Source: a virus. Taken from it: 32,891 bases of DNA. Of this stretch, positions 5,784-30,491 are shown one piece after another. Position numbers and translations under genes: made by a program. The notes under the pieces were generated by a model. It made no database searches, had not been told where the DNA came from, and worked only from the letters and a program-made list of their open reading frames with translations. The DNA is taken from positions 1 through 32,891 of IMG/VR virus record IMGVR_UViG_3300044835_000065, one strand, 5' to 3'. Position 1 is the stretch's first letter. Every line of letters starts with the position of its first letter.

Positions 5784-6125
5784 ATGGCTATAGAGCAAAT
5801 GCAGCATTGTTTCAACTGCGGCGCAGAGCTTGGTGTCTATAAGCAGTTGCCGGGCGACTTCGATACTTGTGGTCGGGCTGATTGCGCCCGCGAGCAGCGA
5901 GCAATTTTCCGGCAGCAGCGCGAAGAAGCGCACGAAGCTCTTGCGGAGAACGCGACGCTACGGTACGCATTGTCAATGCTCGCAGACGCCGTGCGCACCG
6001 TGGACTGCCCCTGCTCTGTGGGTGAGCGCGACAGCGGCCATCACATCGACTGCTACATGCCGCGACTGGCGTTGGAGATGGAGTCTGTGCGCGCCGCGCT
6101 GAGTGGAGATACTGATGAGCTTTGA
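5784..6125 (+). CDS. Zinc-ribbon plus coiled-coil protein
   Basis: The gene encodes 113 residues. ATG 5784 was chosen over 5781 because GGAGGG (5774-5779) is then at better spacing. An N-terminal Cys4 site is formed by C9, C12, C29 and C34 (HCFNCG...DTCGRADC), typical of a small zinc ribbon. A charged coiled coil follows (EQRAIFRQQREEAHEALAEN). A second possible metal site lies near the C-terminus (DCPCSVGERDSGHHIDC, residues 74-90). The metal binding is inferred; no enzyme domain is visible. The next gene starts inside its last codons. Confidence 0.62.
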   Translation: MAIEQMQHCFNCGAELGVYKQLPGDFDTCGRADCAREQRAIFRQQREEAHEALAENATLRYALSMLADAVRTVDCPCSVGERDSGHHIDCYMPRLALEMESVRAALSGDTDEL

Positions 6126-6282
6126 TGAACAACCGGACGGCGATCAGCATGGCGAGTGCGCCGCTGAGATTCGCAGATTGACCGACGAAAACGAGCGGCT
6201 GATCAAGATCACGATGCCAGGGTATGACGGCTCGTTCGGCTTGTGTGATATGTCCATCATCTGCGACTGGGACAAGAACTGA
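6115..6282 (+). CDS. 55-residue chimeric mini-gene carrying a duplicated C-terminal module
   Basis: ATG 6115 overlaps the end of the zinc-ribbon gene by 11 bp. The first 30 residues form a charged helix (AAEIRRLTDENERL). The last 24 residues (ITMPGYDGSFGLCDMSIICD and on) match 18 of 24 residues at the end of the 226-residue protein at 5030-5710. The frame and stop are intact, so it may be expressed. It looks like a remnant of a second copy of that gene whose front has been replaced, or a compact derivative of it. Confidence 0.6.
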   Translation: MSFDEQPDGDQHGECAAEIRRLTDENERLIKITMPGYDGSFGLCDMSIICDWDKN

Positions 6283-6295
6283 TCCGCCTACCCGA

Positions 6296-6318
6296 CCGCA
6301 GGCGGGATTGTCCTGCGG
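6296..6318 (+). other. Intergenic stem-loop
   Basis: CCGCAGG (6296-6302) is a perfect match to CCTGCGG (6312-6318) across a 9-nt loop. It follows the 6115-6282 mini-gene, as another stem-loop follows the full-length copy. No T-run follows. Confidence 0.5.
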
Positions 6319-6330
6319 GAAATTGCAGTA

Positions 6331-6469
6331 CGTAGCGATGGTCGGCGGCGTGGAGCGGCCGGCGCAATGTGCTCTGTTGGGGAAGCAAAGATAACCGGCG
6401 TGGCAACCGGAAGCCGCAACTCCCTGGCATCAGAACGCGACCCGGCGATAGTCGCCGACCATCACTACG
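6331..6469 (+). ncRNA. Structured element bounded by 17-bp inverted repeats
   Basis: The arms CGTAGCGATGGTCGGCG (6331-6347) and CGCCGACCATCACTACG (6453-6469) are complementary except for one position. They enclose 105 nt with short internal inverted repeats such as GCCGG (6358-6362) and CCGGC (6395-6399). No ORF with a ribosome-binding site is seen inside. The element lies in the only larger gap (213 bp) of the rightward operon and stops 26 bp before the next ATG. A structured leader or small RNA is one reading; a MITE-like insertion is another. No tRNA or known riboswitch pattern is recognised. Confidence 0.4.
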
Positions 6470-6495
6470 CATTGGTAACCGAATAGGAGAACTGA

Positions 6496-6981
6496 ATGAC
6501 TACAGAAACCCTACTGCCGTTCACCATCGAGGCATTCAAGGCTGATCCAATGCGGGTGCGACTCGTCGGGAGTGGGCGGCCGGTCCTAGCAATGCTATGG
6601 GGCGAAGGAGTCGCAGTGCAGTGGACGGATGCAATGAGCATAGTACTTTATGGTCCACCGGCATTCACTTTGCTTCGGCTCTACAACCGCCAGAGGAGAG
6701 AAGCCATGAGCGATGAGCAGCGGCAAGAGCTATTGACGCTCGCAGGCAATTACGCATCGGTGCTGGATAGGTGCGGGCAGTCGATCGTGGATGCGCGCAA
6801 AAGGAAACTTGTCGCCTACGTCGATTCGCTCATTGCCGCCGAGCGCGAGGCATGCGCGGAGATGTGCGAATCAACGTACCCGGAAGTCGCTGACTCAGCG
6901 CAGAGACCAATGCGGACAATACAACTAGCTTGTTTCGATACGCCAGCAGAATGTGCCGCTGCAATACGGGCGCGCACATGA
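6496..6981 (+). CDS. Hypothetical protein, apparently two small genes fused
   Basis: The gene encodes 161 residues; ATG 6496 follows AGGAGA. Residues 1-70 resemble a small phage domain that usually stands alone (LPFTIEAFKADPMRVRLVGS). Residue 71 is a Met preceded in the DNA by AGGAGAG (6694-6700) at good spacing, so translation could also begin at 6706 and give a 91-residue product. The second half has a helix and the common phage ending EREACAEMCE...TPAECAAAIRART. No function is known for either half. The stop overlaps the next start. Confidence 0.65.
   Translation: MTTETLLPFTIEAFKADPMRVRLVGSGRPVLAMLWGEGVAVQWTDAMSIVLYGPPAFTLLRLYNRQRREAMSDEQRQELLTLAGNYASVLDRCGQSIVDARKRKLVAYVDSLIAAEREACAEMCESTYPEVADSAQRPMRTIQLACFDTPAECAAAIRART
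6706..6714 (+). promoter_or_regulatory. Internal translation start candidate
   Basis: ATG 6706 lies in frame within the 6496-6981 gene and is preceded by AGGAGAG five bases upstream. The ribosome-binding site is at least as good as that of the annotated start, so a shorter second product is likely or this is a relic of the former gene start. Confidence 0.45.
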
Positions 6982-29340: not shown

Positions 29341-29369
29341 TTTGACACGCTATGCCAATTTGACATAGC
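29341..29369 (+). promoter_or_regulatory. Divergent promoter and operator candidate of the cassette
   Basis: TTTGACA occurs twice, at 29341-29347 and 29359-29365, exactly 18 bp apart. The first TTGACA is a consensus -35 with TAGCAT (29366-29371) as a possible -10 at 18 bp. An inverted repeat GCTATG-N9-CATAGC spans 29349-29369. The layout suits a regulated promoter driving the 202-residue gene to the right. A further direct repeat, GCCGTGGCA at 29381-29389 and 29394-29402, precedes the ribosome-binding site. Confidence 0.5.
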
Positions 29370-29421
29370 ATCCTATTTAAGCCGTGGCATTCCGCCGTGG
29401 CAGCACTGGAGGTACTGAGGC

Positions 29422-30030
29422 ATGAGTAAGGTCGAGGCAATCAGAAAGACGGAGCCAACCAACGGCGGAGCCGAAACGATCTCAGCGAGCGAGCCGTACA
29501 GCGTTGTCGTCGCGCTCGAAGGTTCGGCGGATTTTCTCTTTCATCGCTGGAATGCGGAAGCGGTGGATACGAAGGCGAAAGCCGCCAAAAACAGCGTCGC
29601 CAAGAAAACGGATGACATTGAGTCCTACGTGTATCGGGATGACGCGGGTCGGCTGTGCATCCCCGGCGAGTATCTCCGGCAGGCGATTATTCACGCAGCG
29701 AAGTTTCGGCAAGACCCGCGCTCGCCGCGAAAGAGCGCGATGGATCTGTACAAGGCGGGCGTCGTGTCCCTGACCGCGCTGGCATCGCTCGGGAAGGTGA
29801 ATTGGGACTACGAGGACAAGAGGCGCGTAGTGATCCAACGCAGCGGCGTGAATCGCACGCGACCGGCCATGAAGGTTGGCTGGAAGGCGGAATTTCAATT
29901 GATGGTGATGCTGCCGGAATACATCGCCCGCGCCGATCTGCAAGACGTGATCGGCAACGCGGGCAGGTTGATCGGCCTCGGCGATTTTCGGCCGACGTAT
30001 GGTCGGTTCAACATCGTAAAGTTTGAATGA
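29422..30030 (+). CDS. Unknown phage protein, cassette core (RWN / DFRPTYGRF type)
   Basis: The gene encodes 202 residues; ATG 29422 follows GGAGG (29408-29412). It lies on the strand opposite to the late operon. Recognisable blocks are FLFHRWNAEAVDTKAKAAKN (38-57), RLCIPGEYLRQAIIHAAKFR (77-96), QDPRSPRKSAMDLYKAGVVS (97-116), RVVIQRSGVNRTRPAMKVGW (135-154) and the ending IGLGDFRPTYGRFNIVKFE. I recall similar unannotated phage proteins but no assigned function. The Gly-rich GDFRPTYGRF end and the PGEYLRQAI helix are loosely like nucleic-acid-binding RAMP or Cas7 folds; that is a guess. A repeat array and an HTH gene follow it directly. Confidence 0.7.
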   Translation: MSKVEAIRKTEPTNGGAETISASEPYSVVVALEGSADFLFHRWNAEAVDTKAKAAKNSVAKKTDDIESYVYRDDAGRLCIPGEYLRQAIIHAAKFRQDPRSPRKSAMDLYKAGVVSLTALASLGKVNWDYEDKRRVVIQRSGVNRTRPAMKVGWKAEFQLMVMLPEYIARADLQDVIGNAGRLIGLGDFRPTYGRFNIVKFE

Positions 30031-30037
30031 AGATTTC

Positions 30038-30142
30038 GGCTTGGTATGGAGCGGTAGTGCGAGCTGGGGTCGGGTCGGGTTCGGTTTGATATGGAGTGGC
30101 TGGATGGGGTAAGGTCGTGAATGGCGAGGTGGGGCAAGGTAA
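30038..30142 (+). repeat. GGYNN pentanucleotide array, first block
   Basis: This holds 21 consecutive 5-bp units. In most, the first two bases are GG and the third C or T; the last two vary freely. The phase is strict (GG at positions 30038, 30043, 30048 and so on) with a few single-base departures. Five-base spacing is not a multiple of three, so it is not a coding repeat. Confidence 0.85.
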
Positions 30143-30144
30143 CG

Positions 30145-30182
30145 CAGTGGGTTGCCGATTCACAAGAGTCGGCCTCCCAGTG
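30145..30182 (+). other. Hairpin between the two pentanucleotide arrays
   Basis: The outer stem CAGTGGG (30145-30151) pairs with CCCAGTG (30176-30182) with one G-G mismatch. After a 2/2 internal loop, GCCGATT (30154-30160) pairs with AGTCGGC (30167-30173) with one G-U pair, leaving the loop CACAAG. It is the strongest simple hairpin in this cassette and breaks the GGYNN pattern exactly in the middle. No T-run follows. Confidence 0.7.
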
Positions 30183-30188
30183 CGAAGT

Positions 30189-30298
30189 GGCGAGGAAAGG
30201 CGTGGTGAGGAAAGGCTAGGCGAGGCAAGATCAGGCGCGGTGAGGCATGGTCGGGTGTGACGAGGTTTGGCCTGCAAAGGTTTGGCACGGCGAGGCTT
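30189..30298 (+). repeat. GGYNN pentanucleotide array, second block
   Basis: This holds 22 units with GG in most (30189, 30194, 30199 and so on), one base out of phase with the first block. Units such as GGCGA, GGTGA, GGCAC and GGTTT share only GGY. The last units form the ribosome-binding site (GGCGAGG) of the HTH gene at 30301. Confidence 0.87.
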
Positions 30299-30300
30299 TT

Positions 30301-30468
30301 ATGAGCGGTTCAGAACTAAAATTGTTGCGCAAGAAACTCGGCCTGTCGCTGGCGCAGGCCGCACGGCAGGTCGAGGTTTCTGCGCGAACGTGGGCACGGT
30401 GGGAAGCCGGGAATCAGAGAATTCCAGAGGGCGCGGTAAAGCTGTTCCGGATACTGAATCCAGGCTAG
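30301..30468 (+). CDS. Small helix-turn-helix protein (XRE-like)
   Basis: The gene encodes 55 residues. ATG 30301 follows GAGG inside the last repeat units. The sequence SELKLLRKKLGLSLAQAARQ followed by VEVSARTWARWEAGNQRIPE is a clear Cro/CI-type HTH with the usual Q-A-A and RWE pattern. At this length it is a single DNA-binding domain. It is a likely regulator of the cassette promoter. The stop falls in the stem of the hairpin at 30468-30491, and it converges on the scaffold gene. Confidence 0.75.
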   Translation: MSGSELKLLRKKLGLSLAQAARQVEVSARTWARWEAGNQRIPEGAVKLFRILNPG

Positions 30469-30491
30469 CGCCTTCATTTTCTTGAAGGCGC
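30468..30491. terminator. Hairpin between convergent HTH and scaffold genes
   Basis: GCGCCTTCA (30468-30476) and TGAAGGCGC (30483-30491) form a perfect 9-bp stem with a 6-nt loop TTTTCT. It overlaps the last codons of the scaffold gene and the stop of the HTH gene. It could end the rightward cassette transcript or slow late transcription towards the capsid gene. There is no T-run on either side, so factor-independent termination is not certain. Confidence 0.5.

Follow-up and report, generated by a model that had tools for sequence, protein, structure and literature searches.

The window analysed here is the whole 32,891-nucleotide stretch of IMG/VR virus record IMGVR_UViG_3300044835_000065, from a phage that encodes a T7-like tail and internal virion proteins. 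Within a long minus-strand late operon of this phage lies a self-contained plus-strand cassette (positions 29342–30468), with minus-strand genes for a capsid protein (phrog_3437) and a scaffold-like protein (phrog_3742) on either side. The cassette consists, in order, of a promoter with an operator-like palindrome, a gene for a 202-amino acid protein, a 21-unit array of GGYNN pentanucleotides, a hairpin, a 22-unit GGYNN array, and a small helix-turn-helix (HTH) gene – every element that the initial annotation had placed there. An inverted repeat at the cassette end (30468–30491), between the HTH gene and the convergent scaffold gene, could form a hairpin and is a possible shared terminator; the scan that identified the promoter did not score it as one. 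At the other end of the window, ~44 copies of a CGCAGC hexamer (1136–1398) lie in long overlapping frames that lack any family match.

An empty version of the insertion site is found in podovirus MW202898, which has the gene order scaffold, small ORF, capsid and no cassette. Since its scaffold and small ORF match their window counterparts (31% and 37%, respectively), the cassette can be placed between the scaffold gene and the small ORF. An IMG/VR contig, L062, carries a unit of the same layout within a different minus-strand structural operon, so the unit appears to be mobile. The initial description of a moron-like insertion with its own control is borne out.

The 202-amino acid protein (29422–30030, plus strand) matches PHROG family phrog_4652 (E 7e-18), which carries no function, and no family in Pfam, NCBIfam or PADLOC matched it. 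A profile of its clade had a sole match in the PDB, 36pp_D, ‘SUSP1 Vipr protein’ (E 2.8e-11, profile positions 26–196). Structure prediction of the protein alone, a suggestion of the initial annotation, gave an AlphaFold model (pLDDT 88.7) whose fold matches Cas7/Csm3 RAMPs – all 50 Foldseek matches listed were Cas7/Csm3-type RAMP subunits or fusions (TM about 0.5, E 4e-7). We conclude from these comparisons that the window protein is homologous to SUSP1 Vipr, with a predicted single-RRM RAMP fold, and refer to its gene as vipr. Relatives, which share a conserved G-D-F-R-P-x-x-G-R-F motif near the C terminus, occur in Felixounaviruses, Pseudomonas phages, a Mycobacterium abscessus prophage, phage DSL-LC04 and 58 IMG/VR contigs. 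An alignment-based search identified a further 31 loci on genome contigs (Thermomonas, cyanobacteria, Phycisphaerales, Alicyclobacillus and others), where a single-sequence search of the genome contigs identified none.

The DSL-LC04 homologue (OR003939.1 22429–23046; L001:5001–5618) is annotated as a helix-turn-helix transcriptional regulator, which is probably a misannotation. Phycisphaerales genomes (L076–L085, L089–L091, L097) contain a vipr of this clade that has arrays on both sides and lies in a conserved neighbourhood; this form may be chromosomal or domesticated.

VIPR (Viral Interference Programmable Repeat) was described in a 2026 preprint and has seven published types (PMC13142463). 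The VIPR protein is a single-RRM RAMP with a glycine-rich loop and a thumb, and co-purifies with vrRNAs, in which GGY and NN alternate over 9–16 repeats and which have a structured 3′ tail (PMC13142463). Recognition of double-stranded DNA relies on NN pairs, with one base skipped between successive pairs, and the system represses competing phages; this mechanism was worked out in the SUSP1 and P. fulva VIPR systems (PMC13142463). The initial annotation had proposed that the 202-residue protein binds its own repeats as RNA. This is very probably correct, as its homologue with a solved structure is a Vipr protein, and vrRNA is reported to co-purify with Vipr (PMC13142463). The repeats are not merely binding sites, however: by homology they would be guides, with NN letters that specify DNA targets.

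The window system resembles type II VIPR (Escherichia phage SUSP1 and a P. fulva prophage) in that it is phage-borne and occupies a short locus, with a Vipr of about 200 amino acids predicted to adopt a RAMP fold, GGY/NN arrays, a structured 3′ tail, and sister systems that have skip-1 matches in other phages. It differs from type II in that its Vipr is about 28–30% identical to relatives of the SUSP1 type, the cassette lacks a vap1-like second gene, the arrays reach 21–22 units and lie downstream of vipr, and an HTH gene is present together with its own promoter palindrome. The window thus has most of the VIPR features that could be checked, and the case for its membership in VIPR, as part of a divergent clade, is strong. 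In some more distant phage loci (L002:4411–4902, L003:4411–4974, L004:4240–4680, L005:4389–4847), a gene of about 146–187 amino acids directly 3′ of vipr is probably vap1.

The predicted fold also recalls the Cas7/Csm3 backbone of class 1 CRISPR systems, a repeating subunit on a guide RNA. Unlike those systems, the window locus contains no CRISPR array or cas operon (its only repeats are GGYNN, and its neighbours are capsid, scaffold and HTH genes), the repeat period is 5 nt rather than 6 nt, pairing would be non-contiguous, and sequence identity is about 10–17%.

Array 1 (30038–30142, plus strand), the putative vrRNA guide region, maintains an unbroken 5-nt register over 21 units with the NN letters TT AT GC AG GA GG CG CG TC TT AT GT TG GG AA CG AT GA GG AA AA. 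Array 2 (30189–30298, plus strand) contains 22 units, with the NN letters GA AA GT GA AA TA GA AA CA GC GA AT CG GT GA TT CT AA TT AC GA TT, and has no tail hairpin. Of the 43 window units, 41 begin with G, 37 have G in second place and 37 have C or T in third place; positions 4–5 are mixed. The profile of the whole clade is similar: G at 95%, G at 88% and C/T at 90%, followed by two NN letters that are nearly random (near 2 bits of entropy). When both strands of the window were scanned, the array threshold was reached nowhere else. In a simple GG-phase measure the arrays score 32, against maxima of 8 for the rest of the window, 14 for shuffles (n = 2000) and 20 for first-order Markov versions of the region (n = 2000).

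Arrays on the same strand flank 94 of 95 vipr homologues – all 63 phage and viral loci, 30 of the 31 genome loci, and the window itself – and the lone gene without one is truncated at a contig end. The expectation that homologues would regularly be followed by both arrays and a small HTH gene therefore held for the arrays and failed for the HTH gene, a homologue of which is found in only 2 of the 95 loci (the window and L062).

Array 1 runs directly into a hairpin (30143–30184, plus strand) composed of 4+4 bp, a 2×2 internal loop, 8 bp with GAUU/AGUC, and a tetraloop, which folds at −30 kcal/mol (z = −7.3). Its shape and GAUU/AGUC core are common to the post-array tails of four relatives (L023, L024, L028, L032). 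In a small alignment of these five sequences, which were selected by a motif within the stem such that the innermost pairs are favoured, 5 of 12 pairs changed on both sides and 96.6% of cells were paired, compared to at most 64% in slid controls; some of the covarying pairs lie outside the selection motif. Judged by folding and covariation, array 1 carries a structured 3′ tail and array 2 does not. No Rfam family matched above its gathering score in the window or 13 relatives, and so no hammerhead-interspersed array was detected.

These features bear on the view that the array DNA is a structural, recombination or packaging site, or a set of binding sites for the HTH protein, and that the 202-amino acid protein is unrelated to it. 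Such a role could account for the GG-rich, strand-asymmetric composition of the arrays and for the position of the HTH gene next to array 2. We nevertheless find it barely credible, because the arrays accompany vipr (94/95) and not the HTH gene (2/95), they lie on the vipr strand, their tail is a covarying RNA, and the only HTH-linked shared DNA site is the promoter palindrome. A guide RNA encoded with its Vipr is the reading that we follow below.

Array length and position vary within the clade. The window arrays, at 21 and 22 units, exceed both the clade’s modal length of 11 and the 9–16 repeats of published vrRNAs (PMC13142463). One relative (L010) has a 73-unit array upstream of vipr, and another (L042:1196–1887) has nine arrays, mostly of 10–12 units, with mainly short, AT-rich, hairpin-free spacers between them. 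In L015, L019, L023, L024, L028 and L041–L046, tailless arrays upstream of vipr end about 15–22 nt before its start codon. At least two tailless array families match phage genes (see below), and therefore a tail may not be required for guides, or the vipr 5′ UTR may stand in for it. Array 2 of the window may be a guide, a leader, or both.

We identified a sigma-70-like promoter candidate (TTGACA-18-TAGCAT; 29342–29371, plus strand) upstream of vipr that has 10 of 12 consensus matches, compared to a chance mean of 0.4 in the region. Between its −35 and −10 hexamers lies an operator-like palindrome, TATGCCAATTTGACATA (29351–29367), and a leader element, CCGTGGCATTCCGCCGTGGCA (29382–29402, plus strand), follows. 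The same promoter arrangement is found upstream of vipr in L062, where the palindrome is perfect (TATGCCAAATTGGCATA) and the leader element nearly identical. L062 also equals the window in tail position, second array and HTH gene. The palindrome TATGCCAAnTTGGCATA, with up to two substitutions allowed, occurs within the 890 kb searched only in the window and L062, in both cases between the −35 and −10 hexamers of vipr. By comparison, phage DSL-LC04 (OR003939), whose vipr is 63% identical to that of the window and whose arrays lie upstream, lacks both the HTH homologue and the palindrome.

The HTH gene (30301–30468, plus strand) encodes a 55-amino acid, Xre-like protein (Pfam HTH_31, E 9e-11) that is a candidate repressor, and the window and L062 copies differ by 22 synonymous and 10 nonsynonymous codons. 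The two loci that have this gene are also the only two with the palindrome, which makes it plausible that the HTH protein controls the cassette promoter, as had been suggested; with two cases to go by, such control is a reasonable supposition. The HTH gene and its operator look like an accessory local control module that lies outside the conserved system.

Searches with the guide seeds of the window against viral contigs returned no target or only chance matches. The first guide-2 seed matched eight viral contigs over the seed only (25–26 of 46, the same as unrelated loci), one guide-1 seed matched two viral contigs with no extension, and the remaining seeds matched none. Among 398 genomes searched per guide, guide 1 had no match and guide 2 had one 3-mismatch match, which is about the chance expectation. 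Guide 1 had no convincing match in 38 carrier contigs, and peptides decoded from the window guides had no tblastn match in phages. More broadly, cross- or self-targeting among vipr loci revealed no skip rule above shuffled guides, and one Alicyclobacillus guide had no target in its own genus.

Guides without a target in the viral contigs, genomes and carrier contigs searched, along with some array units that depart from GG, are what one would see in a VIPR copy that had decayed or fallen silent and persisted by hitchhiking, its guides no longer matching anything. This seems unlikely given that the vipr frame is intact and retains the family-invariant residues, that a promoter-like site and a conserved tail are present, and that the HTH changes relative to L062 are mostly synonymous. 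A lack of targets is, moreover, expected where host and competitors are unsequenced.

The leader arrays of two relatives, L019 and L023, begin with the same NN letters, even though DNA identity between the two vipr genes is only 80%. Their skip-1 pattern matched 33 viral contigs, all within one gene (phrog_2480; ...AARTVKTGKPSYRLALMKE) and with the skip at the codon wobble position. The L019 guide matches phrog_2480 at 10 of 10 NN pairs, including three letters outside the search pattern. The L023 guide matches L138 at 10 of 10 NN pairs and fits the alanine that L138 has instead of proline. Among the target contigs is one from the metagenome of L023 (3300016476), and the phrog_2480 match is absent from carrier contigs. 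In a selection-free test, all other guides were scanned on the phrog_2480 target contigs with a threshold of at least 17 of 18 letters. Skip 1 yielded 98 matches – largely on homologous contigs, and hence representing few independent events – compared to 0, 0 and 4 for skips 0, 2 and 3 and 0 for shuffled guides. Random guides (n = 300) reached at most 16 of 18 on the target contigs.

A second gene emerged from this comparison. The L032 guide, which was not used in the choice of contigs, matches at 9 of 9 NN pairs, antisense over the start of a neighbouring Sak4-like ATPase gene and with its skips at wobble positions, and the L024 guide matches at 8 of 8 NN pairs at the start of the Sak4-like ATPase gene. 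Both phrog_2480 and the Sak4-like gene belong to the early genes of temperate-looking phages and lie close to a LexA-like repressor, in keeping with the published systems (PMC13142463); the LexA-like and Sak4-like labels reflect a reading of the sequences rather than a family search. These temperate-looking phages (L112–L144; e.g., L131:5274–5753 and 6073–6969) have early genes matched by two independent guide families of the window’s clade. In all four guides (L019, L023, L024, L032), 8–10 consecutive earlier repeats are perfect and the last few repeats fit the target poorly, which hints at a fixed pairing length. What is new here, on the strength of sequence matches, is that the L019/L023 and L032/L024 guides, when read by the published one-nucleotide-skip code, match two early genes of one phage group.

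These matches also weigh on a possible autoregulatory role for the arrays. The sites of TRAP, the trp RNA-binding attenuation protein, consist of triplet motifs at 5-nt spacing (two-base spacers) bound by an oligomer, and the triplets of the arrays have the same spacing. In many relatives, too, no more than about 30 nt separate the end of a tailless array from the downstream vipr start codon, and in the window the gap between array 2 and the HTH start codon that follows it is 2 nt. A TRAP-like RNA-binding protein might therefore recognise GGY triplets in its own transcript and control vipr or HTH translation or termination, with no foreign target involved. We consider this account improbable – about as much so as a decayed copy, or marginally more. 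Vipr has a different fold from TRAP, no sign of attenuation was seen, and the spacer letters are informative, carrying target information: the L019/L023 and L032/L024 leader arrays match competitor genes by the skip-1 code. Programmable repression by vrRNA has furthermore been shown (PMC13142463). The notion that tailless leader arrays are purely autoregulatory is weakened, as two such families match competitor genes, and because both target-matching guide families are tailless leaders, tailless arrays appear to act as guides. Autoregulation may be a secondary role.

We thus regard it as highly likely that the cassette is a VIPR system, carried as a moron against competitors and equipped with its own repressor. 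Its parts, their homology and fold, the near-universal linkage to arrays, the covarying tail, the insertion relative to an empty site, and the competitor targets of sister systems are established by the present analyses. In the scheme that we propose, one promoter would drive the vipr gene, the vrRNA (array 1 plus tail), the second array and the HTH repressor. Cas7-like Vipr subunits would assemble along the RNA at its GGY positions, leaving the NN pairs free to bind double-stranded DNA of a competitor phage or prophage by the one-nucleotide-skip rule, and the DNA-bound complexes would block transcription of the target gene. RNA binding, the skip rule and repression were shown elsewhere for other VIPR members, and it is by analogy to these that we infer a guide function for the window arrays. 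The HTH protein, whose control we likewise infer, would most likely bind the palindrome over the promoter and keep the unit off or limit its own level.

A more elaborate variant, which we offer tentatively and think doubtful as a whole, has VIPR with built-in switching. The HTH repressor and promoter palindrome would travel as a mobile module, and through tailless array 2 at the HTH start the Vipr complex could exert feedback on the repressor. Pairing with DNA would, moreover, be confined to the first 8–10 guide repeats, with the last two or three forming a landing pad, a division suggested by the targets of L019, L023, L024 and L032.

VIPR represents a very recent claim of RNA-guided DNA recognition that is older than CRISPR (2026 preprint, PMC13142463), and the window, with its CRISPR-ancestor-like protein, adds a member from a divergent clade found across many phyla. 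Guides of this clade provide an independent check of the non-contiguous code, with two guide families leading to two genes of the same phage group. That two phages carry, at different insertion sites, a VIPR cassette that includes a candidate repressor and operator makes the regulation of such systems testable. By analogy with characterized members, the window cassette would be an RNA-guided weapon that probably shuts off the genes of competing phages.
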